From NCBI RefSeq assembly GCF_943181435.1, contig NZ_OW969598.1, positions 1,240,001 to 1,304,000 on the forward strand: a stretch of 64,000 bases of DNA, read 5' to 3'. This document shows, one piece after another, positions 6,649 to 64,000 of this stretch. Positions within the stretch are counted from its first letter, which is position 1. Each line of letters starts with the position of its first letter. This DNA is from Neisseria sp. Marseille-Q6792 (lineage in GTDB: Bacteria; Pseudomonadota; Gammaproteobacteria; Burkholderiales; Neisseriaceae). Both the position numbers and the translations under genes were made by a program. A model generated the notes under the pieces. It saw nothing but the letters and a program-made list of their open reading frames with translations, had not been told where the DNA came from and did no database searches.

Positions 6649-7833
6649 TCAATGCGCGTATTGCTCAAGAATTTCGTCCACCAGTCTGTCAGCTTCCGAC
6701 CAATCCGTGCCTTCAGTTTCCGGCAACACGGCATCCGGCGTTTTTGAAATAGGCGCGCCTGCGGCGGAAGTATCCACTTTTACCGTCATCGACAAACCGA
6801 TGCGCAACGGATGCCTGTCCACATCTTCACGGTTCAATTCGATACGGACAGGGACACGCTGCACCACTTTAATCCAGTTACCCGTGGCATTTTGCGCCGG
6901 AATCAGCGAAAACGCGCTGCCCGTACCTGCCGAAAACCCTGCCACCCTGCCGCGATAAACAATTTGTTTACCGTATAAATCGGACACCAGCTCGGCAGGC
7001 TGTCCGATTTTCATATGCCGCAACTGCGTCTCTTTAAAATTGGCATCAACCCACACATCCGACAACGGCACCACCGCCATCAGCGGCGCACCGGCCGCCA
7101 CCTGCTGTCCAACCTGTACCGAACGCTTTGCCACCTGACCGTCCACCGGCGCGCGGATTTGCGTCCGCTGAAGGTTCAACCACGCATCTTTCAACCTGCT
7201 GACTGCCGTCTGAACCGCCGGCTGTTCGCGCAAAGCGACCTGACCACCCAAAGCCGCACGCGCCGAAGATTCTTCCGCCAAAGCCGCCTTAACTGCCGCC
7301 TGAGCCTGAGACACTGCCGCACGGGCATGTGCCAGCTCTTCGGCGGACACGGCTCCTGATTCCGCTAAAGCAGACCGGCGGCGTAAATCATCCTGCGCAC
7401 GTGCCAAATCCGCTCGGCGCAAAGCAACCTGCGCCCCCGCCTGAGAAGTGGCGGCATTTTGCTGGCGGTTTTGCCGCACCGCCTGAATCAGCTCGTTTTT
7501 CGCCCGTTCATACGCCAACACATAATTGCCGTCGTCCAATACGGCCAACACATCGCCTTTCTTCACAACATCCGTATCATCATGCAACACCTTCCGCACC
7601 ATACCGCCCGTTTGCGGCGTAATCTGAACCACGCGTCCGACAACATAAGCGTCTTCCGTTTCCTCTTCGTGCTGCCACCATAAAAAAAACGCCGACCCGG
7701 CGGCTACGGCGGCAAGCGCGAACAGCAGCGTCAATGCCGTCAGGCGGCGTTTGCGTTTGGCTTGCGTGTTTTGAAGTTTTGTTTCGTCCGTGTGCGTATC
7801 CATAAGATTGGGTTCCGAATTTCCTGATTTCAT
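6649..7833 (-). CDS. farA: Fatty-acid efflux pump, periplasmic adaptor FarA
   Basis: This 394-residue membrane fusion protein has one N-terminal membrane anchor (about residues 31-50, LTALTLLFALAAVAAGSAFF). A lipoyl/barrel domain follows, interrupted by a long alanine-rich coiled-coil hairpin (about 115-225), as in EmrA. It links FarB to an outer-membrane channel. A possible internal start at residue 11 would shorten the tail. The promoter region upstream contains a full-length Correia element, which could alter regulation by FarR or IHF. Confidence 0.93.
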   Translation of the reverse strand: MKSGNSEPNLMDTHTDETKLQNTQAKRKRRLTALTLLFALAAVAAGSAFFLWWQHEEETEDAYVVGRVVQITPQTGGMVRKVLHDDTDVVKKGDVLAVLDDGNYVLAYERAKNELIQAVRQNRQQNAATSQAGAQVALRRADLARAQDDLRRRSALAESGAVSAEELAHARAAVSQAQAAVKAALAEESSARAALGGQVALREQPAVQTAVSRLKDAWLNLQRTQIRAPVDGQVAKRSVQVGQQVAAGAPLMAVVPLSDVWVDANFKETQLRHMKIGQPAELVSDLYGKQIVYRGRVAGFSAGTGSAFSLIPAQNATGNWIKVVQRVPVRIELNREDVDRHPLRIGLSMTVKVDTSAAGAPISKTPDAVLPETEGTDWSEADRLVDEILEQYAH

Positions 7834-12690: not shown

Positions 12691-12730
12691 ATGCCGTCTG
12701 AAAGCGGGTTTGGGGCTTCAGACGGCATTT
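12691..12730 (+). terminator. Inverted-DUS terminator with long T run
   Basis: ATGCCGTCTGAA at 12691 pairs with its inverted copy ending near 12727, followed by TTTTGC. The next 20 bases contain T8 then G7 and lead into the start of the rhodanese gene. Confidence 0.75.
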
Positions 12731-12756
12731 TGCTTGGTTTTTTTTGGGGGGGTGCG

Positions 12757-13083
12757 ATGGATATTGTGCAACTTGGGCCGGCGGAATTGAAGGCGTGGAT
12801 GGACGAAGGACGGATGTTTTGTTTGTTGGACGTGCGTACGGATGAAGAAGCGGCGATTTGTTCGCTGCCCGATGCGGTACATATCCCGATGAATCTGATT
12901 CCGCTGCGGCAGAACGAGCTGCCGGACGACGGCGTGCCGCTTGTGGTGTATTGCCATCACGGTATCCGCAGCCTGCATACAGCGATGTATTTGGCCGATG
13001 CTGGGTTTGAAAACCTGTACAACCTTCAGGGCGGCATCGATGCATGGGCAATGCAGGTGGACAGCAAAATGATGCGGTATTGA
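12757..13083 (+). CDS. Rhodanese-domain protein
   Basis: This 108-residue single rhodanese domain has the active-site loop VVYCHHGIRSLHTA, with the catalytic cysteine near residue 66, and the LDVRTDEE and YNLQGGIDAW motifs. It may transfer sulfane sulfur to acceptors such as cyanide or protein thiols. The Shine-Dalgarno is not a normal AGGAG: the ATG follows T8-G7-TGCG, so the G7 run seems to serve as the ribosome site. Its closeness to the phosphorothioation island is interesting but is not evidence of a shared role. Confidence 0.9.
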   Translation: MDIVQLGPAELKAWMDEGRMFCLLDVRTDEEAAICSLPDAVHIPMNLIPLRQNELPDDGVPLVVYCHHGIRSLHTAMYLADAGFENLYNLQGGIDAWAMQVDSKMMRY

Positions 13084-13106: not shown

Positions 13107-13188
13107 GAGACCTTTGCAAAATTCCCCAAAATCCCCTAAATTCCCACCAAGACATTTAGGGGATTTTGGGGAATTTTGCAAAGGTCTC
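13107..13188. repeat. 82-bp perfect palindromic MITE-like element
   Basis: Two perfect 35-bp inverted arms (13107-13141 and 13154-13188) begin GAGACCTTTGCAAAATTC and flank the 12-base centre TCCCACCAAGAC. The ends resemble termini of IS5-type insertion sequences of Neisseria (IS1106-like; from memory). No coding capacity. A truncated copy in the same orientation lies at 18777-18837, so the two copies bracket the phosphorothioation island. Confidence 0.85.
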
Positions 13189-13191
13189 CAT

Positions 13192-13380
13192 CTACCATTC
13201 AATTAACAATTCGTCAGAAAATTTAATCTGCTCTGTTCTCAAACTACCTGAAGCATATAAAAGACACAGGCTGTACAGCAAAATAAATTTGTGCGGTGAC
13301 TGCTTTTGCGCATAAGTAAAATTGGTATGCAGCCATCGAAATTGTTCTGCATATTTCAACAAGACCGGTAAATCCGTCAT
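13192..13380 (-). CDS. Small hypothetical protein coupled to the HTH regulator
   Basis: This 62-residue protein begins MTDLPVLLKYAEQFRWLHTN and contains a hydrophobic stretch FILLYSLCLLYASG. Its ATG overlaps the TGA of the upstream HTH gene in an ATGA arrangement, implying translational coupling. The stop lies only four bases from the palindromic element, so the C-terminus may have been cut or replaced when that element inserted. I do not recognise the family; its pairing with an Xre-like regulator leaves a toxin-antitoxin-like or co-regulator role possible but unproven. Confidence 0.5.
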   Translation of the reverse strand: MTDLPVLLKYAEQFRWLHTNFTYAQKQSPHKFILLYSLCLLYASGSLRTEQIKFSDELLIEW

Positions 13381-13628
13381 ACCGAGCCCTCCTGCAAACC
13401 CCGAACTACCTCAGACGTATCCCAATCCAAAGCCCGACAGTATTCGATAAATTCAAATATATCCAGCCGCCTGTCCCCGGTTTCCACCTTTCCCACGAAC
13501 GAATGCACCACATTCATACGTTCCGCCAATGCGCGCTGCGACAACCCCAAATCCAATCTTCTGCGGATAAGGAGTTGTCGCAAATAGGTGTGTTCGGCAG
13601 AGTGTACCGACAAACGAATATTTCCCAT
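13377..13628 (-). CDS. Xre/Cro-type HTH transcriptional regulator
   Basis: This 83-residue helix-turn-helix protein contains LGLSQRALAERMNVVHSFVGKVETGDRRLD, a classic Xre fold (about residues 26-55). The ATG at 13628 (MGNIRL) is chosen over a TTG seven codons upstream, because the upstream codons overlap a probable operator. It is divergent from dndC with a 67-bp gap that holds an inverted repeat, so it is likely a repressor of itself and of the dnd genes. Confidence 0.8.
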   Translation of the reverse strand: MGNIRLSVHSAEHTYLRQLLIRRRLDLGLSQRALAERMNVVHSFVGKVETGDRRLDIFEFIEYCRALDWDTSEVVRGLQEGSV

Positions 13629-13637
13629 GCGCTCCGA

Positions 13638-13674
13638 TTTTAGGTACAATCACGCACGCACCTGTTTTAGGTGC
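13638..13674. promoter_or_regulatory. Probable operator between the HTH gene and dndC
   Basis: GCACCT-GTTTT-AGGTGC (13658-13674) is a perfect 6-bp inverted repeat. A related half-site TTTTAGGTACAA lies at 13638-13649. They sit between the HTH gene start and the dndC ATG at 13696, where a dimeric Xre regulator would bind to control both directions. Confidence 0.55.
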
Positions 13675-13695
13675 AAATAAGAAATATGTATAAAA

Positions 13696-14828
13696 ATGAC
13701 CGTAATACCCATACACCCTGCCAACCCGTTCGATGCTATACGCCAAAACATCGCTGAAGAATATTTGAGCGAAACACAGCACTACCCTTGGATTGTTACC
13801 TTTTCAGGCGGCAAGGACAGCACCCTTGTCGCCCATTTAGTATTTGACATGCTACTTTCGCTGCCGCCGATGCTGCGGACGCGGCAGGTGTTCTTCGTAT
13901 CCAACGACACGCTGGTGGAAAGCCCGTTGGTGGTGAAACACATGCGCCAATCTTTGGCAGAAATTCTGCGTGCCGCCGAAATTTTCAGGCTGCCCGTCAG
14001 CGGTGAAATCACCGTGCCGAAATTGCAGGACACGTTTTGGACGTTACTCATCGGCAAAGGCTACCCCACGCCCAACCGCTCAATGCGCTGGTGTACCGAC
14101 CGCCTGAAAATCCAACCAACCAGCGGCTACATTCTGCAAAAAGTAAACGAAAACGGCAAAGCCATCATCGTGCTGGGCGTGCGCAAAGACGAATCTGCCA
14201 CCCGCAAGGCAAGTATCGAAAGCCACCAAAACTTGGAAAACAGCAATCTGACCCCGCACAGTGATCTGAAAAACGCGTTGGTGTACCGACCGATTGCCGA
14301 TTTGAGTACCGACGACATGTGGCCAACGACCCGCCCTGGGGAGGCACACACAGCGATTTAATCAAGCTCTACCGCGAAGCTGCCGGCGGCGAATGCCCGA
14401 TTGTGCTGTCGCAGGAAGAAGCCCCCGGTTGCGGCACCAACTCTAGCCGTTTCGGCTGTTGGACGTGTACGGTGGTCAATAAAGATAGAAGCCTGCAAGG
14501 ATTTGTGGACGCGGGGAAAACTGAATTTGCACCGTTAATTGAATACCGCAACTGGTTAGTGGATATCCGTAACAAACCCGAATACCGCCAGGCCGAACGG
14601 CGCAACGGAAAACTCACGTTCAAAGGCGGCAAACACATCCCCGGCCCGTTCACCATAACGGCGCGGCAGGAAATGCTGGTAAAACTGCTGGAAGTGCAAG
14701 CTGCTTTCGGCGAAGAACTGATTTCGCAGGACGAAATCGACCTAATTAAACAGATTTGGACGGAAGATCTAATTAACACTTATTCAAGGAATAAAAATGA
14801 AGACGGAAACACGGGAACAGGTGGCTGA
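13696..14828 (+). pseudogene. dndC: DndC, DNA phosphorothioation PAPS-reductase-like protein (frameshifted)
   Basis: DndC is an Fe-S ATP pyrophosphatase-like enzyme that activates DNA for sulfur insertion. The first frame (13696-14361) has the PP-loop TFSGGKDSTLVAHLV (near residue 35) and RWCTDRLK. The second (from about 14319, stop 14828) carries NDPPWGGTHSDL and the cysteine cluster PGCGTNSSRFGCWTC. Homology switches frame at about 14322, right after STDDMW. The loss is 1 mod 3 bases; missing residues before NDPPWGG suggest about 10 bp lost between two TGG copies. With the indel the product would end early without its Fe-S region. Confidence 0.82.
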
Positions 14829-15015
14829 TTTGCTGTTGTGGAGTGATGAAAATGCCCGAAACCTGATGAAGAAAATTGCTGCTGAGCATGGTGTATCGCC
14901 CGATGCCCTAGCTGATTTGGCAGCATGGGAGCGCGAGCAACAGGAACGGATCCGCAAACGCGGCATGACTGAAGCATTCGATGAAGTTTTTGAAAACAAG
15001 AAATATTGGGGTTGA
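14797..15015 (+). CDS. Small Dnd-associated protein (72 aa)
   Basis: This 72-residue charged helical protein begins MKTETREQVADLLLWSDENA and contains WEREQQERIRKRGMTEAFDEVFE. It overlaps the end of dndC by 32 bp and ends two bases before the dndD ATG, so it is clearly part of the operon. AAGGAATAAA upstream gives a reasonable Shine-Dalgarno. Small proteins are found between dndC and dndD in several genomes, but no activity can be read from the sequence. Confidence 0.75.
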   Translation: MKTETREQVADLLLWSDENARNLMKKIAAEHGVSPDALADLAAWEREQQERIRKRGMTEAFDEVFENKKYWG

Positions 15016-15017
15016 AT

Positions 15018-17063
15018 ATGTGGATACATTCAATCAGACTGCTTAATTTCAAATCCTACAAAGAAGCGGCCTTTTCCTTTCCCGAACCGAAAAACGGGCA
15101 AAACATTGTTTTAATCGGCGCGATGAACGGGCACGGTAAAACCACTTTGTTGGAAGCAGTTTACCTTTGCTTATATGACACGGATGCGGTCAGTCATTTG
15201 CAGCGGGCAGGCTTGAATAGCAAAGATATCAATTATCCAAATTTTCTGCAGGCTGCGTTGCATCACAAAGCCGCGCCGCAATACGGCCGATACCGCATCG
15301 AGCTGGAAATTGAAATCCGCCAACGGCGGCAAGGTAAGATTTACGGCCTGAAAATCCGCCGGAAATGGCATTTCAATGAGAAAAGGCAGTTTGAACGCGA
15401 AAGCACCGAAACGCGGGCAGACGTGTTGGTTGACGACCGCTACCTGCCCGTCGATTTAGCCGAATTGGACAAATATCTCAACACTTACGCCCTGCCGTTC
15501 GATTATGCGCCGTTTTTCTTTTTTGACGGCGAAAAAATCGTGCAGGCTGCCGAACGCAGCGGCACGGGCATGTGGCTCAACACTGCCCTGAAAGGCCTGC
15601 TGGGAGTAACCCTGCTGACACGGCTTGCGGCTAGTCTTGGCGATTACCGCAAACGCTGCATTTCCGAAAATGCAGGTCAAAAAATGCAGGAAGATTTGGA
15701 AAGAGCCGAAAACGCGTTGGCATCTGCTCAAGCCCAATACGATGTGTTTCGTGAGGAGTGGGAAAAAATGCAACAGGAATGGGCTCATTGGGATTCGGAA
15801 AGAAGCAGGCTGCAACAGCAGCTAGGTGGTGGTAGCGACATTCGGACTTCGCAGGATTTGCTGATGCAGCGTGAACGGCTGGAAAAGGAAATGGACGACT
15901 TCAATGCGAAGATCAAAGCGGCGGTTAAAGCCATGCCTTTGGCCTTCCTGCCGTCAGACGGCTTAAACGTGCTAAAAGGCAAACTCGAACGTGAAGCAAA
16001 CCGCCTGCACCACGAAGCCGGCAGGGAACAGATTGCGGGACGGGTAAACGATTTTTGGAGTGCGTTTGTCGGCAGCGGCAAAGTCAAAGAAGTATTGGGG
16101 CGTTCGGCTTGCGCCATTTTGGAAGACCCGCTGATGAAGGAAGCTGTGGCCGAATGCTGGAACGAATTGTTCTACCCGCTGCCTGAAAATTGCGCCGAAA
16201 CTATCGAACACAACTATCTCTCGAAAAACGCCCATGCTGAAATCCAAAACGAAATCAGCCGCCTACAGGGTATGCCGCAAGGCAGGATAGGCAGCCTGCT
16301 GGCCGATATCGAACAGCGGCGGAGCGAACAAAAACAAGTCTTGGAAGAATTGGAGCTGCTAAAAGGCAGTAACAAAGACGAACTGGTGGAACAGCTCAAA
16401 CAGGCGAACAAGCAGGCCGATATACTGAAAGAACGTTCGGGCAGCCTGAAAAGCAACGTGTTGCAAAAAGAGAAAGAATGCCAGCGCAGGAAGGATGAAG
16501 TCAGCAAACTGCAAGACAAAATCAGCGACAGCAACCCGCTGATGGTGAAGTCACGCCGTGCGGGGCAGGTGGAAAAAGTCATTGCCGCATTGACCGATGC
16601 GCTGACGCGGCAGAAGGCGGACGAAATCGGTGAAACCGCTACCCGCATCAACCGCGCCATTTCGCATGATAATCGCATCCACAAAATCAGCATCGAAGCA
16701 GACGGCAGGATGGGTTTGTACGGCAGCAGCGGCAGGGAAGCGCAGGTCGATTTGTCGGCCGGACAAATGCAGATCCTAATTATGTCGCTGGTGTCGGCAT
16801 TGGCGGAAGTTACCCGCTATCCCGCCCCCTTCGTTATCGATACCCCGCTGGCACGTTTGGACGAAGGTCACCGCGAAGGTTTATTCAGACATTGGAGTGG
16901 GCTGGAACAGCAAGTGATTTTGCTGTCGCAGGACACCGAAATCACTCCCGAAGTGTACCGCCGTCTCGACCCGCATATCGGCCGCACATATCTGGTGGAA
17001 GCCGAATCGCTGGACAGCGCAGGCGCATGTTCGCGCGTAACCGCTGATGTTTATTTCGAATAA
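15018..17063 (+). CDS. dndD: DndD, SMC-like ATPase of the phosphorothioation system
   Basis: This 681-residue protein has SMC/RecN/Rad50-type architecture. An N-terminal Walker A lies in GAMNGHGKTTLLEA (about residues 35-48), and FFFFDGEKI (near 165) is characteristic of DndD. Long coiled coils follow (about 215-300 and 410-520), then the ABC signature DLSAGQMQILIM (about 578) and Walker B FVIDTPLARLDEGHR (about 606). It belongs to the DNA sulfur-incorporation complex with DndC and DndE. GGGG upstream supports ATG 15018, four codons inside the longer frame. It is the only large dnd gene here that is intact. Confidence 0.92.
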   Translation: MWIHSIRLLNFKSYKEAAFSFPEPKNGQNIVLIGAMNGHGKTTLLEAVYLCLYDTDAVSHLQRAGLNSKDINYPNFLQAALHHKAAPQYGRYRIELEIEIRQRRQGKIYGLKIRRKWHFNEKRQFERESTETRADVLVDDRYLPVDLAELDKYLNTYALPFDYAPFFFFDGEKIVQAAERSGTGMWLNTALKGLLGVTLLTRLAASLGDYRKRCISENAGQKMQEDLERAENALASAQAQYDVFREEWEKMQQEWAHWDSERSRLQQQLGGGSDIRTSQDLLMQRERLEKEMDDFNAKIKAAVKAMPLAFLPSDGLNVLKGKLEREANRLHHEAGREQIAGRVNDFWSAFVGSGKVKEVLGRSACAILEDPLMKEAVAECWNELFYPLPENCAETIEHNYLSKNAHAEIQNEISRLQGMPQGRIGSLLADIEQRRSEQKQVLEELELLKGSNKDELVEQLKQANKQADILKERSGSLKSNVLQKEKECQRRKDEVSKLQDKISDSNPLMVKSRRAGQVEKVIAALTDALTRQKADEIGETATRINRAISHDNRIHKISIEADGRMGLYGSSGREAQVDLSAGQMQILIMSLVSALAEVTRYPAPFVIDTPLARLDEGHREGLFRHWSGLEQQVILLSQDTEITPEVYRRLDPHIGRTYLVEAESLDSAGACSRVTADVYFE

Positions 17064-17078
17064 TGAAAGGAACAACAC

Positions 17079-18664
17079 ATGTATCTGCTGCCAGACAACC
17101 GCCAGTGGGACTCCGACTATTTCCATACCTTGATTAGCGACAAACACATTATTTCCAGCAGTGAAGCTAAAGTCATACGCGAAAAACTCACCCATGCGAG
17201 TGCGCTACCGCATCTGGACAACAACTACGACTGGGCGACACTCTGTATAGGCTATTGCTTTGCCAAAGGATGGGCGCAACAGCCGGAAAAATTGACCGCT
17301 GCCCCCGATACCAAAGGCATCGATATCCCGTCTTTCCAAACCTGCTTTCAAGACCATTGCGGCTGTGGCTCGCCCTACTGAGCGAGACCCTGTTCCACAT
17401 CAGGCAGGGTAAACCGGCGGGAAAAGATGATTTGTATAAACTGATTGCCGACCTGTGGCATACCGGCGCGCTTGGTTTGCATGCGTTTTGGGAACGTTGC
17501 AGACAATTCAAACCTGATGACGATTTGGCGCAACGGCAGGCCTTTTTGAACGAATTGGCCGAATTGGCAGTTAAAAACAGCAGAGGACGGCAAAGCATGG
17601 GGAAAAATTCTTTTTCAGACAGCCTTCACGCGGAAAATACCGAGACACCCGATGCAGCATGCATCAAACTCAAAACCGCACTGGACAAAACAGTCGGCAA
17701 AGGCGGTACGATACAGCCCGAATACGGCGGCGTGCGCTATGACTGCTTGCGCGTACAGTTTGACCGCTATGTGGATTTGGAAAAATACCACAGCCAAATT
17801 TGCTCCGAATTGGGCATCGGCGATAACGAAATGCGCTGCGGGCGCATATGCGGTGAAGCCAACACTTGGCACATCAATATCCTGCGTCCGCAAGATACTT
17901 GGCGGCAATATGGACAAGATGAGTTTCAGACGGCCTTGCAGCAATACCGCGCATCGGCACGGCAATTCAGATTGCCAGTGTGTATCGGTTTGGACGAACG
18001 CGGCGAACCCGTGTTTCAAGATTTTGCCACCGCGCCGCATGTGATGGTAGGTGGGGAAACAGGGTCTGGGAAATCAGTACTAATTCGCTCAATGCTGGCT
18101 TCCCTGTTCGAACTCGCTCCTCAGAATGAAACGGAAATCGTCGTGTGTTATTGCAAAGTTTCTGCGGATTTCGCCGTCTTCAAAGACCGTCCGAATTTAT
18201 GGCAGGGGCGCATAGTCAGCGATGCGGAAGAAGCTGCTGAAATATTGTCGTCTTTTGCTGACGAGATGGATAAACGATACCGCCTGATGGACGAATACGG
18301 TGCGAAGGATATTGCAGAAGTCCCACAGCACGCCCGTCCAAAATATGTTGTTATCGTGATTGACGAACTGGCCGACCTTATCGATGTCAGCAGTGAAGCG
18401 GAAGGGCATTTGGTACGGCTGGCACAAAAAGCACGCTCCGCAGGAATGTATCTGTTATTGGCAACGCAACGCCCCGATGCGAAAACACTCAGCGGCCGCC
18501 TACGTGACAACCTGCCAACCAAAATCGCGTTGAAAATAGGCAAACGCCAGTCTTCCGAGATTATCTTGGGTGAGCGCGGTGCCGAAAACCTGACGGACAA
18601 AGGCGATCATTTGGTCAAATGGAACAATGGAGTGGCGCAGTTTTTGCACGGGTATAATGTATAA
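17079..18664 (+). pseudogene. DndE-FtsK/HerA-type fusion protein (frameshifted)
   Basis: The first frame (17079-17381) gives a DndE-like domain, with SSSEAKVIREKLTHAS and YDWATLCIGYCFAKGW. The next frame, open to 18664, continues LWLALLSETLFHIRQGKP, then after a linker an FtsK/SpoIIIE motor with Walker A GGETGSGKSVLIRSML, Walker B YVVIVIDELADLID and LLLATQRPDAKTLSG. Frames switch near 17358 in a CATTGCGGCTGTGG context, consistent with loss of one G. Restored length would be about 528 residues. DndE proteins are usually about 110 residues, so a fused motor is unusual. It overlaps no neighbour and starts 15 bp after dndD. Confidence 0.78.
17925..17936 (-). other. AG-DUS dialect uptake sequence inside dndE-ftsK
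   Basis: TTCAGACGGCCT is the reverse complement of AGGCCGTCTGAA, the AG dialect of the Neisseria uptake sequence. A second copy, on the plus strand, lies just past the gene at 18695-18706. I found no ATGCCGTCTGAA within the dnd genes. Confidence 0.8.
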
Positions 18665-18776: not shown

Positions 18777-18837
18777 GAGACCTTTGCAAAATTCCCCAAA
18801 ATCCCCTAAATTCCCACCAAGACATTTAGGGGATTTT
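18777..18837. repeat. Truncated copy of the palindromic MITE-like element
   Basis: The sequence repeats the left 35-bp arm, the 12-base centre and the first 14 bases of the right arm of the element at 13107-13188, then stops abruptly. The next bases belong to the AraC-family remnant. It has the same orientation as the left copy. Confidence 0.85.
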
Positions 18838-18838
18838 C

Positions 18839-19066
18839 CATGAGCACCTTCTTCCGGCAAACCGCGCAAGCCATAATCGCCAAACCGGCGAAACCGTCGC
18901 TGGAGGCCTGCGCCGCCTGTGGCTGGAACACGCGCTCGCCTTCATCGAATCCGGCAGCACCGTCCAAGCCGCCATGCACTTTTGCGGCTACCGCCACGCG
19001 GGACGGCTCAATGAAGCGTTCAGGCGGCATTACGGATTTTTGCCTTCGGATGCGAAGAAGTGCTGA
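18839..19066 (+). pseudogene. 3' remnant of an AraC-family regulator (mpeR-like)
   Basis: An open stretch ending in TGA at 19064-19066 encodes the C-terminal HTH of an AraC-type regulator: GGLRRLWLEHALAFIESG, STVQAAMHFCGYRHAGRLNE and AFRRHYGFLPSDAKKC. There is no start codon and the upstream two-thirds are missing, replaced by the truncated palindromic element. MpeR, an AraC regulator of pathogenic Neisseria, is remembered as lying next to this prolyl oligopeptidase gene, so identity with mpeR is likely but inferred. The fragment cannot make a functional regulator. Confidence 0.75.
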
Positions 19067-19179: not shown

Positions 19180-21195
19180 TTACCCCAAAAATTCTTTGAG
19201 AAACAATAAGACACACGCCATTTCGTCGGAGGATTCGCGTTGCGTGCCGTTGCCGGTATGGCCTCCGCCGTCGGGCGAGTAGAGCCAAGATTGCGGCGAG
19301 GTTTCGCGCAGTTTGGCGTAGAACTTGAGCGCGTGGGCGGGATGGACGCGGTCGTCGCTGAGGCTGGTGGTAATGAGCACAGGCGGATAATCGATGCCGT
19401 CTGAAAGATTGTGATACGGCGACAATTCGCCCAGCCAACGTTTGCAGACTTCGTATTTTTGCGGATTGCCGTATTCGTCCGTCCAGCTTGAACCGGCGGA
19501 CAGCAGCGGATAACGGATCATGTCGGTCAGCGGTACTTCGCACACCAGCGCGCCTATGCTTTGCGGTTCGCGCACGAAGGCGGCGGCGGTAATCAGGCCG
19601 CCGTTGCTGCCGCCCTGCAAACCGATGTGCTCGGGCGAACTCATGCCGCGTTCAGACAAATCGCGCACGACTGCCAATAAATCATCAACGCTTTTGTGTT
19701 TGCTGATGCCCTGCGCCGCCTGATGCCAGCGCGGGCCGAACTCGCCGCCGCCGCGTATGTTCGCCAATACAAAGGCGTTGCCCTCTTCCAACCAGTATTT
19801 GCCGATGCTGCCCAGATAATGCGGCAGCTCGGGCACACCGAAACCGCCGTAGGCATAAACCAAGGTCGGCGTATCGGGCGCGGCGTTTTTGCCGACATGG
19901 AAATAAGGGATGCGCTCGCCGTCGGACGAAACCGCCCAAAACTGCCGCACTTCGATGCCGTCTGAAACAAACTGCTGCGGCTGACGGCGCATGACGGTCA
20001 GTTCCATCACGTTCAAATCCAACGCGAACAGCGTCAGCGGCGTGGTGAAATCGCTGGTGGCAAGGTAAACCACGTCGCCGCCCCACGGCTGGTCGGTCAT
20101 TTCCAACGCACCCGAAGGTAGGCGCGGCAACTCGGCTTCCTGCCATTTGCCGTCGGCAAAACGCCACGCTTTCAGACGGCCTTGTACGTTTTCCAGCAGG
20201 CTCGCCACCACAAAACGCTTGGTCGTTTCCACGCTTTCCAATGCCTGCGTTTCATCGGGTGCAAACAAAAGCTGCGCCACGCCTAATTCGCCGCGGTTTA
20301 ATTTTACTGCCACCAATGCGCCGCTCGGATAGCTTTGGTTCGCGCGGTGCCAGTCTTTGCGCAATGTCAGCAAAAGATGTCCCGCCAGATAGCCGACCAC
20401 ATCGCAATCGTTGGGCAGGTTTAACGGTTTCGCCTCGCCTTCGGCTGAGACCTGCAAATAGGTTTTGGTGTAAAAACCGTCAGACGCTTCAATCAAATCA
20501 ATCGGCGAACCCTGCGGATCGAGGTAACGCCACGCGTTCACCATCATCCCGTCTTCGCCGATTTGGTACACCGGCAGGCTTTCCTCGAAACTTTTGCCGC
20601 GTTCCACCAGCCACACTTCGCGCGGATAGCCCGATTCGGTCAACTGCCGTTCGTCCCAAGCAGGACACACCCACACGCTGTTTTCATCGCGCCACGACAC
20701 ATGGTTTTTGCCTGCCGGAAAGTGAAAACCGCCTTCTACCAATTCCCCTGCTTCCAAATCCACTTCCAGCGTATAAGCCGTATCGCCGCCCGATTTACTC
20801 AGTGTTAACAACGCGCGGTTGGGCTGTTCCACCAAGTGCGACACGCCGCCTAGATATACATCGTCGCCAAGCAATTCGTCGAAATCCGCCACCGAAAACA
20901 GGATTTTCCACTCGGGATAGCCGGAACGATACGTCGCTGCGGTACACACGCGGTACACGCCCTTCGGATATTCTGCGTCCTGATGGAAATGGTACATCCG
21001 CGCGCGGTGTTCCTGACAAAACGGAATTTGCCGCGTGTCCTGCAATTGCGCCAAAATGCCGTCGGACAATGCGCGCGCTTTATCGTTGTCCAAAAAGCGC
21101 GCACGCGTTTCAGCATTCGCTTCAGCAGCAAAGTTTTGCGTTTCGGGAAATTCGAGATTTTCGAAATGGAGATAGGGGTCGGGGTAGGATTTCAT
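19180..21195 (-). CDS. Prolyl oligopeptidase family serine peptidase (S9A)
   Basis: This 671-residue protein has a beta-propeller region (about 70-400) and a C-terminal alpha/beta hydrolase domain. The nucleophile lies in LQGGSNGGLITAAAF, the aspartate in TTSLSDDRVHPAHALKF and the histidine in DGGGHTGNG. S9A peptidases cut peptides after proline and are usually cytoplasmic or periplasmic; no signal peptide is seen. The ATG at 21195 is preferred over a TTG just before it. The gene shows ordinary GC content and is intact. Confidence 0.92.
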   Translation of the reverse strand: MKSYPDPYLHFENLEFPETQNFAAEANAETRARFLDNDKARALSDGILAQLQDTRQIPFCQEHRARMYHFHQDAEYPKGVYRVCTAATYRSGYPEWKILFSVADFDELLGDDVYLGGVSHLVEQPNRALLTLSKSGGDTAYTLEVDLEAGELVEGGFHFPAGKNHVSWRDENSVWVCPAWDERQLTESGYPREVWLVERGKSFEESLPVYQIGEDGMMVNAWRYLDPQGSPIDLIEASDGFYTKTYLQVSAEGEAKPLNLPNDCDVVGYLAGHLLLTLRKDWHRANQSYPSGALVAVKLNRGELGVAQLLFAPDETQALESVETTKRFVVASLLENVQGRLKAWRFADGKWQEAELPRLPSGALEMTDQPWGGDVVYLATSDFTTPLTLFALDLNVMELTVMRRQPQQFVSDGIEVRQFWAVSSDGERIPYFHVGKNAAPDTPTLVYAYGGFGVPELPHYLGSIGKYWLEEGNAFVLANIRGGGEFGPRWHQAAQGISKHKSVDDLLAVVRDLSERGMSSPEHIGLQGGSNGGLITAAAFVREPQSIGALVCEVPLTDMIRYPLLSAGSSWTDEYGNPQKYEVCKRWLGELSPYHNLSDGIDYPPVLITTSLSDDRVHPAHALKFYAKLRETSPQSWLYSPDGGGHTGNGTQRESSDEMACVLLFLKEFLG

Positions 21196-21389
21196 CAATA
21201 TGCCGTCTGAACAGTAGAAGGCGGATTATATCGGAAATTCAGGCAGATGATGACGAAGGCAGTTCAGGATGGGAGGAGGTCTTGTTTGCCCGATAGGCGG
21301 CAGGTTTGACAATGTCTGTTTTTGATTCCCACCCTGCAAAGATTTAAACGACATGCCGTCTGAAGCAGCGTTCAAACGGCATGGCGTTT

Positions 21390-49750: not shown

Positions 49751-50170
49751 ATGAATAATAATAATATTTATAAAATCAAACCGTTACAATTCCCAAAAAA
49801 TAACTGCAGATTTTATTTGGATAAGGTTTATGCTACTGAACAAGATGTGAATATTTCAGCATCCGATTGCAATAAGGAAGTGCACATTGAAATATTTATA
49901 GACTCCGTCATTCATTTCCAACTGACGGATGAATCTTATAAAGTAAAATTTTCAGAATATTTATTCCAAAATAGAGCAAAAAATCATTGGGATAAAAATC
50001 CTACTACACATTATTTTTTTGAAATAATAGATGACAGTTATATGGACTGGTTGAAAAAAGAAAGTTTTGATTTCTTTGAAAAGGAATATTACAAGGCTTA
50101 TGTCTTCTTTTTCAACGATTTTGTCATAGAAGTGATCAGCGCGGTAGAACCTGTATTTTATTCAAAATAA
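49751..50170 (+). CDS. Hypothetical protein in AT-rich cassette (139 aa)
   Basis: This acidic, aromatic-rich 139-residue protein begins MNNNNIYKIKPLQFPKNNCR and has no signal or membrane segment. The composition (many N, K, F, Y, D) and low GC contrast sharply with plsX and fabH on either side, which suggests transfer. I do not recognise the family. Its position with two other small acidic proteins, one of MafI type, makes an immunity-type role plausible but unproven. Confidence 0.65.
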   Translation: MNNNNIYKIKPLQFPKNNCRFYLDKVYATEQDVNISASDCNKEVHIEIFIDSVIHFQLTDESYKVKFSEYLFQNRAKNHWDKNPTTHYFFEIIDDSYMDWLKKESFDFFEKEYYKAYVFFFNDFVIEVISAVEPVFYSK

Positions 50171-50211
50171 CAAAAAGACCTGTCCTAAATATCGCCCGGA
50201 ATATTTGAAAA

Positions 50212-50463
50212 ATGAAGACATTAGAAAAACGGATGAAAGCTCTAGACAAACGGATTATGAAGTTCGGAAAATCCCTTGAAGGCAGGCTTGATGCCCGTCT
50301 GATTGAATCCGCATTGGATTATATTCATCATGCAGAACGTTTGCTGGCTTTTGAAATCCTGTGTACTTATGTTGAAGATTTCGATATCCGGCTGACGGAA
50401 CAAGAATCCCAAGAAATTTCTTTTATTGACAAGGAATTTAGGACAGAAAGTACGTTAGATTAG
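50212..50463 (+). CDS. MafI-like immunity protein (83 aa)
   Basis: This 83-residue helical protein has LDARLIESALDYIHHAERLL and AFEILCTYVEDFDIRLTEQE. The arrangement of NERLLAFEILC-type residues resembles MafI family immunity proteins of Neisseria, which neutralise MafB toxins. No mafA or mafB gene is near, so it would be an orphan. Composition is AT-rich. The assignment rests on pattern memory and needs a profile search. Confidence 0.6.
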   Translation: MKTLEKRMKALDKRIMKFGKSLEGRLDARLIESALDYIHHAERLLAFEILCTYVEDFDIRLTEQESQEISFIDKEFRTESTLD

Positions 50464-50489
50464 CTAATAAAATCAACGGGATGATAAAC

Positions 50490-50906
50490 ATGAAAACATC
50501 AACGGTTGTTTTTGGCGGATTTTTTATTACAGATAATGGAGAACGAATCCAAATCCCCGTTTTGGAAAATCCTGGCATTAGGGAAATCAATCACTTTTTT
50601 TCCGTATCAAATTTTGAGAAAAAAGCCGGCGTCCTTGTTTTCAGAATTATTCCTGAACCCAAATTTGGCAATACCGAATTAACTATCTATTTTGAAGAAG
50701 GATGTTATTTGCCAATGATTCAAACAATTTTAGAAGACGGGGATATTGAAGTCAAAAACCTTAAAACAGAAAATTATAGTGGAAATACAATGGAAATTTG
50801 GGGAGACTTCTACCCTATTGAGCATATCTCTAAAAATATTTCTACAATTCAAAATATAATTTCTGAATTTATGATACAAAAACAAACACCGGCACCAATA
50901 ATTTGA
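50490..50906 (+). CDS. Hypothetical protein in AT-rich cassette (138 aa)
   Basis: This 138-residue protein begins MKTSTVVFGGFFITDNGERI and is rich in beta-type segments (FRIIPEPKFGNTELTIYF). No signal or membrane helix is seen. ATG 50490 is preferred over ATG 50481 because GGGA lies eight bases before it. I do not recognise the family. It is the last of three AT-rich genes between plsX and fabH, before a DUS terminator. Confidence 0.65.
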   Translation: MKTSTVVFGGFFITDNGERIQIPVLENPGIREINHFFSVSNFEKKAGVLVFRIIPEPKFGNTELTIYFEEGCYLPMIQTILEDGDIEVKNLKTENYSGNTMEIWGDFYPIEHISKNISTIQNIISEFMIQKQTPAPII

Positions 50907-50923
50907 TGGAAACCCAACAATCA

Positions 50924-50962
50924 AAATGCCGTCTGAAGCAGGTTTGGTTTTCAGACGGCATT
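50924..50962. terminator. Inverted-DUS terminator after the AT-rich cassette
   Basis: AAAATGCCGTCTGAAGC and TTTTCAGACGGCATTTCC form a hairpin just past the third cassette gene. Confidence 0.75.
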
Positions 50963-51156
50963 TCCTTCGCTTAAAACAGCGTATCGGCAACCCCGCCCTG
51001 CCTGTCCACGGCAATCTGCATCTGAAAACCATCTGTATCCCAAACCACACCCCCCATCCCGATTTCCGTCATTTGCACCCTGCCCGTATTGGGCAATCAT
51101 CGGTTTTTCGCTTACAATAGCCGAATCTGAACCAACTCTCCAAAAAGGCCGTTCCC

Positions 51157-61546: not shown

Positions 61547-62389
61547 CTATTTGAACGATATGACCCGCCTGCCGTAAACTTTCTCAAGCTCCGCCTGCCT
61601 TTGACGCTCCATTCTTTTCTTCTTTTCCCTACCGAATTTACCCAAAGCACGCTTCAAGTCAAACATCACCTTCAACGAACGGCGGTGTCTTCTTCCTTGT
61701 TCCCTATCTTTTTCCAAATCGCTACCCAACATACTGTTTTGACTGAGGAACTTGGCATAATGCAATTCTTGGGTACATAAGGCGGGACTAACCTGATAAA
61801 CAGGCATCCCCTCCTTATCAAAGAAATAAGTAAACATCATCCAATCTACCGCTTTAATCCACTCTGTCGGCAAAACGGCAAACCTTTCCAAGAAAAACCG
61901 CATCGCCTCACGCGAAATGATATAGCCAGCCGTCCCCCAATGTTCGCTCTCCAGCAAAGGAAATGACCGGTTTTCATAATTCAGGACTTTATCCGGTCTG
62001 ACAATAACTTTCGCAAACATCGTTTCCAAACGGACAATAAAGGTAGAATCCTTATCAAAACGCTCTTCCAACCAAGTATCTTCGGCAAGGAACTTTTCTG
62101 CGTCTTTGCCAAGCAGGACATCATCCTCAAATACGGCAACATAGGGCAGACCTTCATCCAGTGCCTGCTTCCACAATACGACGTGGCTCATAAAGCAGGC
62201 TTTTTCCACTCCGCTCAAATAGGGGTGCGCCGACAAACCGGGGACGAGTTCCGCCATTGCCTGTTCCAGCCTTTCAGACGGCATCAGTGCGTCGAAAAAC
62301 TGAAACGGGATGCCGTGCGCGCCGAAGGTATCGGCAATGTGCGCCCTGCGTTCTGCGGCGGAAGCTAAGCTGATAACGTGGTTTTGCAT
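61547..62389 (-). CDS. lgtE: LOS beta-1,4-galactosyltransferase LgtE
   Basis: This 280-residue GT25-family enzyme adds the first galactose to the glucose on heptose I of lipooligosaccharide. It shares its first ~80 residues almost exactly with LgtB (MQNHVISLASAAERRAHIAD), has the FEDDVLLG metal motif (about residues 88-95), and ends with the LgtE-type tail ELEKVYGRRVISFK. A DUS inside the gene encodes MPSERLEQ. It is the last gene of the lgt locus, next to the dRS3 array. Confidence 0.93.
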   Translation of the reverse strand: MQNHVISLASAAERRAHIADTFGAHGIPFQFFDALMPSERLEQAMAELVPGLSAHPYLSGVEKACFMSHVVLWKQALDEGLPYVAVFEDDVLLGKDAEKFLAEDTWLEERFDKDSTFIVRLETMFAKVIVRPDKVLNYENRSFPLLESEHWGTAGYIISREAMRFFLERFAVLPTEWIKAVDWMMFTYFFDKEGMPVYQVSPALCTQELHYAKFLSQNSMLGSDLEKDREQGRRHRRSLKVMFDLKRALGKFGREKKKRMERQRQAELEKVYGRRVISFK

Positions 62390-62430
62390 AATTTATCCTG
62401 TTTTTTGTCTGTTGGATAAAGCGGCGTTTT

Positions 62431-62526
62431 TCAACGGTTTTTCAGCAATCGGTGCAAAATGCCGAAGTATTGCCTCAAGGTAAACAGCCGCCGCATCCTG
62501 CCGTCTGCTGCAAATACGATGTCCAT
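62431..62526 (-). pseudogene. Fused lgtC-start / lgtD-end deletion scar
   Basis: A 31-codon frame with a perfect ribosome site (AAAAGGAG) reads MDIVFAAD, the start of LgtC, then continues directly GRMRRLFTLRQYFGILHRLL, matching the LgtA/LgtD C-terminus (DGKMRRLFTMRQYF in lgtA here). It ends at TGA 62433-62431. The bases after it also match the trailer of lgtA. This is the joint left when lgtC and lgtD were deleted by recombination at the shared FAAD-coding sequence. Confidence 0.85.
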
Positions 62527-62537
62527 CTTTTCTCCTT

Positions 62538-63377
62538 TTATTGGAAAGGCACAATGATCTTGCCGATTAACTGTTCGCGCCTTTGCCGGCGTTTTTCCCT
62601 TTCCCTGCTGATTTTGGTCAAGGCGCGGATCAGGCGGTGTTTGAATGTGTTGGCGGGGGAATCGCGCCTTTGCTGTTTGCGGTTCAGGAGGCGGTCGTGT
62701 TCAATCAGGCTGCCCAATGCGCTGTTTTGGTCGTGAAACTTGGCATAATGCAGCTCTTGGGCGCACAAGGCGGGATTGAGCTGGCAAACCGGCACTCCTT
62801 CCCTGTCGAAAAAATCGCTGAACATCATCAGATCGACGGGGTGCAGCCCTTCGGGCGGCAGGGCGGCAAACCTGTCCAAGAAAAACCGCATCGCTTTTCG
62901 GGAAATGATATAGCCCGCCGTCCCCCAGTGTTCGCTTTCCAACAGCGGAAAGGCGCGCCCGCAGTAGTCCGCCACGCCGGAGGGCGAGGTCAGGACGTGC
63001 ATAAACATCGTTTCCAAGCGGACGATAAAGGCGGAATCGGGGTCAAAGCGTTCTTGCAGCCAAGCGTCTTCGGCAAGGAATTTCTCCGCGCCTTCGCCGA
63101 GTAAAACGTCGTCCTCAAATACGGCGATATACGGCAGACCTTCGTCCAATGCCTGCTTCCACAATACGGCGTGGCTCATAAAGCAGGCTTTTTCCACTCC
63201 GCTCAAATAGGGGTGCGCCGACAAACCGGGGACGAGTTCCGCCATTGCCTGTTCCAGCCTTTCAGACGGCATCAGTGCGTCGAAAAACTGAAACGGAATG
63301 TCGTGCCTGCCGAAGGTATCGGCAATATGCGCCCTGCGTTCTGCGGCGGAAGCCAAGCTGATAACGTGGTTTTGCAT
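62538..63377 (-). CDS. lgtB: LOS beta-1,4-galactosyltransferase LgtB
   Basis: This 279-residue GT25 enzyme adds the terminal galactose to GlcNAc, completing lacto-N-neotetraose. It has FEDDVLLGEGAEKF, SEHWGTAGYIISRKAM, and a basic C-terminus KREQ-type with REKRRQRREQLIGK. It shares long blocks with LgtE but has its own middle (MHVLTSPSGVADYCGRA). Starts three bases after lgtA; a DUS encodes MPSERLEQ. Confidence 0.95.
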   Translation of the reverse strand: MQNHVISLASAAERRAHIADTFGRHDIPFQFFDALMPSERLEQAMAELVPGLSAHPYLSGVEKACFMSHAVLWKQALDEGLPYIAVFEDDVLLGEGAEKFLAEDAWLQERFDPDSAFIVRLETMFMHVLTSPSGVADYCGRAFPLLESEHWGTAGYIISRKAMRFFLDRFAALPPEGLHPVDLMMFSDFFDREGVPVCQLNPALCAQELHYAKFHDQNSALGSLIEHDRLLNRKQQRRDSPANTFKHRLIRALTKISREREKRRQRREQLIGKIIVPFQ

Positions 63378-63380
63378 GAT

Positions 63381-64000
63381 TTATCCTGTTTTTTTGTCTG
63401 CCGGATCTGGCCGCGCCTGCCAGCGGTTTTTAATCAGTCGGCGTAAAATGCTGAAGTATTGCCTCATGGTAAACAGCCGCCTCATCTTGCCGTCTGCCGC
63501 AAAATCCAGCCACGCGCCGGCGGGCGGCGTGTCCGTCCGTTTGAAACATTGATACAAGAAATGGCGTACCCGCTCAAAATCATCTTCTGGCAAATCCTTC
63601 TCCAGCAATTCGTACGCCACTGCTTTTGTTTGGCGGTATTCAAGGCTGTCAAACCTGGTTTTAAAACCCATAGACTGCAAAAAATCGTTTCTGGCGGTTT
63701 TTTGGATGCCTTGCGCGATTTCGTGTTGGCGGATGCTGTATTTGGATGAAACCTGATTGGCGTGAAGGCGGTATTTGACCAAGGCTTCGGGATAATAAGC
63801 CAGCCTGCCCAATTTGCTGACATCGTACCAAAATTGGTAATCTTCCGCCCAATCCCGCTCGGTGTTGTAACGCAAACCGCCGTCAATGACGCTGCGCCTC
63901 ATAATCATGGTGTTGTTGTGTATAGGGTTGCCGAAAGGAAAAACGGCGACAATGTCTTCATGCCGGGTCGGTTTGTCCCAAATTGCACCGTGCCTGTGGT
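63381..64000 (-). CDS. lgtA: LOS beta-1,3-N-acetylglucosaminyltransferase LgtA (3' part)
   Basis: The last ~205 codons of a GT2-family enzyme, which transfers GlcNAc to the lactose of LOS, run off the right edge of the window with an open frame. Recognisable are HEDIVAVFPFGNPIHNNTMI, MRRSVIDGGLRYNTERDWAE and DYQFWYDVSKLGRLAYYP. The phase-variable poly-G tract of lgtA would lie further upstream, outside the window, so its ON/OFF state cannot be judged. It heads the lgtA-lgtB-lgtE set. Confidence 0.93.
   Translation of the reverse strand, partial: HRHGAIWDKPTRHEDIVAVFPFGNPIHNNTMIMRRSVIDGGLRYNTERDWAEDYQFWYDVSKLGRLAYYPEALVKYRLHANQVSSKYSIRQHEIAQGIQKTARNDFLQSMGFKTRFDSLEYRQTKAVAYELLEKDLPEDDFERVRHFLYQCFKRTDTPPAGAWLDFAADGKMRRLFTMRQYFSILRRLIKNRWQARPDPADKKTG

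Follow-up and report, generated by a model that had tools for sequence, protein, structure and literature searches.

Does the compact Dnd (DNA phosphorothioation) cassette of Neisseria sp. Marseille-Q6792 still modify DNA, and what do its relatives reveal about how such a cassette works? The window, i.e., the whole stretch of 64,000 nucleotides analysed here, contains this cassette at 13192-18664, in about 5.5 kb. Its gene order is a divergent helix-turn-helix (HTH) gene, dndC, a 72-aa gene, dndD, and a fused dndE-ftsK gene, and family matches bear out the initial annotation, which had recognised a compact Dnd island with these genes in these places. It is highly likely that the cassette belongs to a compact, self-contained Neisseriaceae type of Dnd cassette, with the working proposed below and with exchange of modules among its relatives, and that it was inactivated recently. 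Compared genomes and loci are designated by our own G and L numbers.

Frameshifts in dndC and dndE-ftsK

In comparison with intact orthologues, dndC and dndE-ftsK are both frameshifted in the window, such that its core genes are not all unbroken. Between fixed anchor codons, dndC presents 5 nt in the window versus 18 nt in N. bergeri (G006) and G015, a net loss of 13 nt, while dndE-ftsK presents 5 nt between its anchors versus 6 nt in the same genomes and is a net 1 nt short. As initially annotated, each loss is 1 mod 3, and the proposed comparison with orthologous islands in other Neisseria thereby fixes the size of each lesion. In the two intact genomes each gene is a single open reading frame (ORF), with dndC encoding 389 aa in N. 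bergeri and 381 aa in G015, and dndE-ftsK encoding 528 aa in both. All 13 relatives with a whole dndC have both of its pieces in one frame (ORFs of 349-400 aa). The protein database contains an intact 381-aa DndC under the name N. meningitidis (P0141); no 221-aa protein is found among the 120 listed DndC clusters, which says little about other strains sharing the lesions, given clusters were formed at 90% identity.

The whole N. bergeri DndC reaches 368 bits against the TIGR03183 model (cut-off 290.4), and the window gene, though itself broken, is assigned to the DndC sulfurtransferases by the same model. A PDB sequence search with DndC returned four weak matches, none of them a sulfurtransferase. 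In dndC, the break separates the PP-loop half from the cysteine-rich half; in dndE-ftsK, it comes after about 92 residues of the DndE domain, and the FtsK motor is left in an open frame of its own. Two deletions have thus very probably switched off the Dnd cluster of the window, judging from the sequence. Because the halves of DndC are severed and the DndE domain is detached from its motor, no phosphorothioate would be expected from it; this supports the earlier view that modification is probably lost, barring, as that view allowed, another copy elsewhere in the genome or sequencing errors. As that view also had it, dndD is intact: it is full length, with 681 aa, 96% identity to G015 and 94% to N. 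bergeri, and is recognised as a DndD ABC ATPase with 246.9 bits against TIGR03185 (cut-off 245.85).

The ratios of nonsynonymous to synonymous substitution (dN/dS, calculated by Nei-Gojobori) between the window and N. bergeri are 0.067 and 0.039 for the dndC pieces, 0.162 for the tail gene (the 72-aa gene, as discussed below), 0.087 for dndD, 0.144 and 0.136 for the dndE-ftsK pieces, and 0.201 for the HTH gene. Between the window and G015, they range over 0.041-0.221. Between N. bergeri and G015, both of which are intact, they are 0.074 for dndC, 0.249 for the tail gene, 0.062 for dndD, 0.164 for dndE-ftsK, and 0.276 for the HTH gene. Given the ratios in the pieces are about as low as between two intact relatives, no relaxation of constraint is visible and the inactivation is, by this measure, recent, in agreement with the recent decay first suspected.

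It is unlikely that the lesions are sequencing or assembly errors and that the system works in the strain. Sequencing errors can be of the size of the dndE-ftsK loss (1 nt), which could alone be one, dndD is intact, and the traces of selection are fresh. However, a 13-nt loss is unusual as a sequencing error, neither site is a homopolymer, and the neighbouring prolyl-oligopeptidase-like gene aligns with that of G001 over 2012 of 2019 nt at 93%, with an open frame of 672 aa in both. Slipped-strand phase variation was also considered as the cause of the lesions and was rejected, since the window sequence contains no homopolymer or other simple repeat at either site.

Less probable still is that the pieces cooperate as a naturally split system, with DndC made as two polypeptides and an internal start yielding the FtsK motor by itself. 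The 3' pieces do keep open frames that are long (14319-14828 and 17255-18664), both halves show low dN/dS, and in this family a separate gene already seems to encode the DndC tail. Yet none of the 13 intact-looking loci is broken at these places, either product would lose part of the DndE domain, and recent loss predicts equally low dN/dS.

Inactivation recurs among the relatives. From 19 related loci, 13 look intact (N. bergeri, G015, G005, G002, G035, G017, G039, G044, G029, G038, G322, Stenoxybacter, and a Bacteroidota metagenome-assembled genome, MAG), five are broken or truncated, and one (G032) is split over contigs. The broken loci are G018 (dndE-ftsK), G034 (dndC), G009 (dndC, dndD and dndE-ftsK), G333 (dndD), and G022, which is without dndC and broken elsewhere too. 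Several of the related loci come from draft assemblies, where errors are possible. Given the window copy is broken, as are five more among the 19 loci, the results suggest Dnd systems are gained and lost like restriction-modification genes.

Modules are exchanged between related islands

G015 and G038 carry the island at the same place, with the same neighbours. Their proteins are 99% identical for the HTH gene, 98% for dndC and 100% for the FtsK domain, versus 46% for the tail, 38% for dndD, 44% for the DndE part, and 57% for the stretch that follows it. The DNA is 98-100% identical over most of dndC (with one patch at 89-91%), falls near the dndC end to about 45-70% across 2.9 kb, and then returns at 92%, rising to 98-100% in ftsK. 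On the reversed G015 stretch, blastn places the borders at 7621 and 10512, and the second of them corresponds to about residue 193 of DndE-FtsK, just beyond a disordered linker. The window behaves likewise: its blastn similarity to G038 ends at 14768 and restarts at 17660, save for one short dndD piece at 73%, and its first border with G322 is also at 14768.

The alternative segment recurs elsewhere. The dndD of G038 is 86% like that of G032 and 90% like that of G322, which belongs to another genus, and the three are 86-93% alike; in G032 and G322 the accompanying dndC and FtsK parts are of different variants. For dndC, G322 shares 93-96% identity with the window piece, G015 and G038. Its FtsK domain, by contrast, reaches only 46-47% with these three and 61% with G029. 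A second case is given by G035 (L029) and G039 (L031), which agree at 94% in dndC and 87% in dndD, and at only 50% in the FtsK domain.

Trees were built with 17 rows (16 for FtsK, with G018 left out because its gene is broken). In the dndC tree, six islands form one clade (100/100). In the dndD tree, the window, N. bergeri and G015 form one group (100/100), and G038, G032 and G322 form another (100/100) on a long branch; in the FtsK-domain tree, G322 is placed elsewhere. The approximately unbiased (AU) test rejects a single six-island FtsK clade (p 0.0006). The same test does not reject a single six-island dndD clade (p 0.232), a result that counts against exchange, although replacement is evident from the DNA profile.

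For the difference between G015 and G038, rapid divergence within a hypervariable segment could be invoked in place of exchange, and the unrejected dndD clade is what it has in its favour. This is most improbable, given that identity drops from 98-100% to about 45-70% at two borders with the adjoining dndC and ftsK at 98-100%, that the same alternative segment (dndD at 86-93%) is combined with different dndC and FtsK variants in G032 and G322, and that one FtsK-domain clade is rejected. The sharp DNA borders are the main evidence for exchange: the segment with the tail gene, dndD and the DndE domain, and separately the FtsK motor, are exchanged as modules in the relatives. This swapping, together with the resemblance of the 72-aa gene to a DndC tail, goes beyond what was initially annotated.

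Restriction-modification systems exchange target-recognition domains or specificity subunits. The islands are alike in having a constant catalytic part, a swapped recognition part, and a border near a domain linker. In contrast, the islands swap a multi-gene segment (dndC end, tail, DndD and DndE domain), whose recognition role we infer. The swapped segment is likely the sequence-reading part, and the swap fits the published prediction that DndD and DndE, proposed to co-evolve as a target-reading core, set specificity (parts of Rakesh, Aravind and Krishnan 2024, PMC10853773); the target change itself would follow from this role. We lean towards a cassette of three exchangeable modules, with odds only a little better than even: a constant HTH-DndC base, a reader composed of the detached DndC tail, DndD and the DndE domain, and an FtsK motor. 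Detachment of the tail would let one DndC serve unrelated readers, a single recombination would re-target genome-wide sulfur marking, and G015 and G038 would mark different motifs.

The DndC tail, the DndE domain and the proposed working

The 72-aa gene overlaps the end of dndC. Of the 447 positions in the DndC model, 364 is the last that DndC here reaches. Positions 388-446 are weakly matched by the 72-aa protein, both in the window (E 0.046) and in N. bergeri (E 0.07), and the corresponding protein of the Bacteroidota MAG weakly matches positions 390-444 (E 0.0096). When a profile of 15 tail proteins was compared with 13 DndC of other bacteria, 52 C-terminal columns matched with a probability of 87% and P 4e-6, while five column-shuffled controls yielded P 0.18-0.56. 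These values make a detached DndC C-terminus the most likely identity of the 72-aa protein. Outside the group, the generality of a split DndC is thin: a separate tail-like ORF beside the DndC of other bacteria is found only in L058 (E 2e-4).

A DndC-tail-like protein of 60 aa (E 5e-7) is also encoded in L068 (G295), at 1510-1692, and no DndC was recognised across the 3.2 kb covered there. From this locus, proteins of the DndC-tail type may serve other systems too.

The whole N. bergeri DndE-FtsK protein was modelled with AlphaFold2 from a 48-row alignment, with a mean predicted local distance difference test score (pLDDT) of 89.8 and a predicted template modelling score (pTM) of 0.63; residues 1-170 were modelled from 7 rows, with a mean pLDDT of 86.1. 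In the models, a mostly helical N-terminal domain is followed by a disordered linker (170-188), and the rest of the protein is FtsK-like. In the PDB, the whole model matches FtsK motor structures, at best with E 1e-25. When the first 170 residues are compared with the PDB using Foldseek, ranks 1-7 are all DndE chains, with probabilities of 0.99-1.00 and TM-scores on the target of 0.67-0.74. Database homologues of about 500 aa carry both PF08870 (DndE) and PF01580 (FtsK). Searching PDB sequences with the DndE-domain alignment yielded two weak matches to calcineurin B-like proteins (E 0.28 and 0.42), which were discarded; the structure resolved the domain as DndE.

Upstream of dndC, twin boxes of the TTTTAGGT type, 27 nt apart, are present in 12 of the 13 aligned islands (window counted). 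Eight islands have both boxes exact, four have one letter changed in one box, and G035 has a single box. The HTH gene is present in 14 of the 19 related loci. The twin boxes suggest control-protein regulation, and shared descent of the related islands explains part of their likeness.

In the proposed working, the HTH control protein would bind the twin boxes and time expression, and DndC would take sulfur from a housekeeping cysteine desulfurase. The DndC tail, here a separate small protein, would link DndC to DndD and DndE, the DndE domain would read the target together with DndD, and the FtsK motor fused to DndE would move this reader along DNA. A module swap would likely change the target sequence and leave the sulfur chemistry unchanged; in the window, the question of a target change is moot, as the cassette is broken.

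Several results weigh against this reading of the cassette. No DndE profile from Pfam or NCBIfam matches the window pieces or four whole orthologues, and Foldseek matches to DndE have E-values no better than 0.02-0.16. Hence, the DndE label holds by structure and not by sequence profile, with the PF08870 and PF01580 matches of the homologues also backing it; of the DndE-FtsK assignment first made, this structural part stands, while profile support is lacking. The tail profile, in a reverse hmmsearch, reaches only five of the 13 DndC of other bacteria (E 0.0037-0.028, threshold 0.05). The top PADLOC model for DndD is PbeC (381 bits) and not DndD (282 bits, with the DndD models third and fourth). 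Finally, inspection by eye of ORFs of at least 80 aa, with no domain search, revealed no nuclease gene up to about 4 kb from 12 islands.

A further alternative is that the cassette makes no phosphorothioate at all, its DndD-DndE core driving another modification or a nuclease-free blocking system that uses the FtsK motor; we regard this as improbable. It gains from the islands' surroundings, given no desulfurase, dndA, dndB, DndF, DndG, DndH or PbeA-like gene was recognised by eye at 12 islands, iscS not having been searched for. However, the intact islands hold a close DndC (368 bits in N. bergeri, as above), and the PP-loop and cysteine cluster motifs, whose usual meaning we presume to apply, are visible in its sequence. 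Parts of PMC10853773 argue that some DndD-DndE cores, chiefly those without DndC, may use other chemistry, while in the part of PMC7464106 consulted, on human-microbiome phosphorothioates, a table names Neisseria strains under 'oral system'.

A working cassette of the Dnd type, as proposed above, would resemble the canonical DndABCDE systems (E. coli B7A; S. lividans and S. enterica Cerro87, from parts of PMC12707154) in having DndC, DndD and DndE homologues in one operon and in its DndE fold. Unlike them, the island has no dndA or dndB recognised alongside by eye, has the DndC tail as a separate gene and DndE fused to an FtsK motor, and has a control-type HTH gene and twin boxes upstream. With the DndD/CxC-DndE core systems, as treated in parts of PMC10853773, it shares a DndD-DndE pair predicted to co-evolve and set specificity, and some of those systems include a small protein; theirs, however, is mostly disordered, whereas the island's looks like a DndC fragment. 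The same parts describe HerA/FtsK as captured by DndH, whereas in the island FtsK is fused to DndE. With DndFGH and PbeABCD the likeness lies in the HerA/FtsK ATPase domain of DndH, as partly documented in the literature, and in the best PADLOC score of the island DndD; the difference lies in the missing DndF, DndG, DndH and PbeA-like genes noted above.

The main text of PMC10853773, in the parts covered, contains no 'DndE-FtsK', no 'DndE fused' and no Neisseria. Titles and abstract starts on Neisseria with dnd, DNA sulfur modification, or DndC in meningitidis yielded no paper on a Neisseria dnd locus. Neither the fusion nor the swap is described in titles, abstract starts and parts of PMC10853773 (supplements being outside this scope) on DndE with FtsK, PF20306, DndE fusion, and specificity with recombination.

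The chromosomal site and significance of the cassette

The coordinates of the features are presented in Table 1. The island lies between a rhodanese-like gene (12691-13083) and the prolyl-oligopeptidase-like gene (19180-21198), both named by eye. The 21-nt end of the left repeat has no further match anywhere in the window, and neither the window's 62-aa ORF nor the G038 ORF has a match in Pfam.

Table 1. Features of the Dnd island and its ends in the window.
Feature	Position	Strand	Remarks
Perfect palindromic repeat, 82 nt	13107..13188	.	35-nt arms, 12-nt loop; left island end; kept in N. bergeri L054 8904-8985
Small ORF, 62 aa, function unassigned	13192..13380	-	downstream of HTH gene; lies within 178-aa ORF in G015, G038
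Divergent HTH gene	13377..13649	-	like restriction-modification control proteins; Pfam HTH_3 3.6e-7; PADLOC Control_protein 1.7e-6
Two tandem operator-like boxes	13638..13678	.	27 nt apart; between HTH gene and dndC; first may overlap HTH start, depending on start codon
dndC 5' piece, PP-loop half	13696..14361	+	about 207 native residues, then out of frame; TIGR03183 positions 4-194
dndC 3' piece, cysteine-rich half	14319..14828	+	native frame from 14322; TIGR03183 positions 200-364
Stretch matching the cassette exchanged in relatives	14769..17659	+	dndC end, tail gene, dndD, DndE domain; borders versus G038
Sp-DndD gene, 72 aa	14797..15015	+	PF20306, E 4e-15
dndD, intact ABC ATPase, 681 aa	15018..17063	+	TIGR03185
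dndE-ftsK 5' piece	17079..17381	+	first ~92 native residues of DndE domain, then out of frame
dndE-ftsK 3' piece	17360..18664	+	remaining DndE domain and FtsK motor; PF01580 9e-32
61-nt direct copy of left repeat	18777..18837	.	right island end; also kept in N. bergeri
AraC-type regulator gene remnant	18881..19066	-	~186 nt of 3' end; gene sits at same site in other species beside iron-uptake-type genes

N. bergeri carries the island at the same chromosomal place, with 9255 alignment columns at 92%. In G001 and G040 this place is only about 60-65 nt long. In G021 (L053 2821-8629) it holds TonB-dependent receptor, periplasmic binding protein and AraC-type genes according to Pfam, and in G016 (L052) the ORFs at the site resemble those of G021 in length and start, Pfam having been run for G021 only. 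G010 has a DUF389 gene and an IS1595-type transposase gene there. Because its contents differ across species, the site looks like one at which one cassette supplants another, and neisserial minimal mobile elements, as described in excerpts of the literature, are the nearest known concept for such exchange. The whole window has 72 uptake sequences, two of which lie in the island.

DndD relatives are present in 15 of 46 genomes of the genus, and DndC relatives in 17 of 83 genomes of the family. A tblastn search of plasmids with full-length DndC matched 2337 records, 31 of them covering >80% of the query; among the matches listed (25 rows), one is a full-length-like DndC, from E. coli.

Elsewhere in the window, two adjacent glycosyltransferase-like ORFs (280 and 279 aa, with the first 23 residues identical) lie at 61547-63908, with a partial third gene at the window edge. 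These lgtB/E-like genes presumably resemble the meningococcal lgt lipooligosaccharide (LOS) locus. The stretch at 50001-51000 has a guanine-cytosine (GC) content of 35%, against 46% and 56% on its two sides; two ORFs (139 and 141 aa) lie in and next to it.

Reading the Sp-DndD family as the DndC tail would give this family a concrete role. Target choice by Dnd systems is unsettled, and same-site islands with nearly the same DndC, the same motor and different reader segments bear on it. Tests of clade-specific sites of DndD/CxC-DndE pairs are called for in parts of PMC10853773, and G015 and G038 constitute a natural test: if their phosphorothioate motifs differ, specificity maps to the segment composed of the tail, DndD and the DndE domain.

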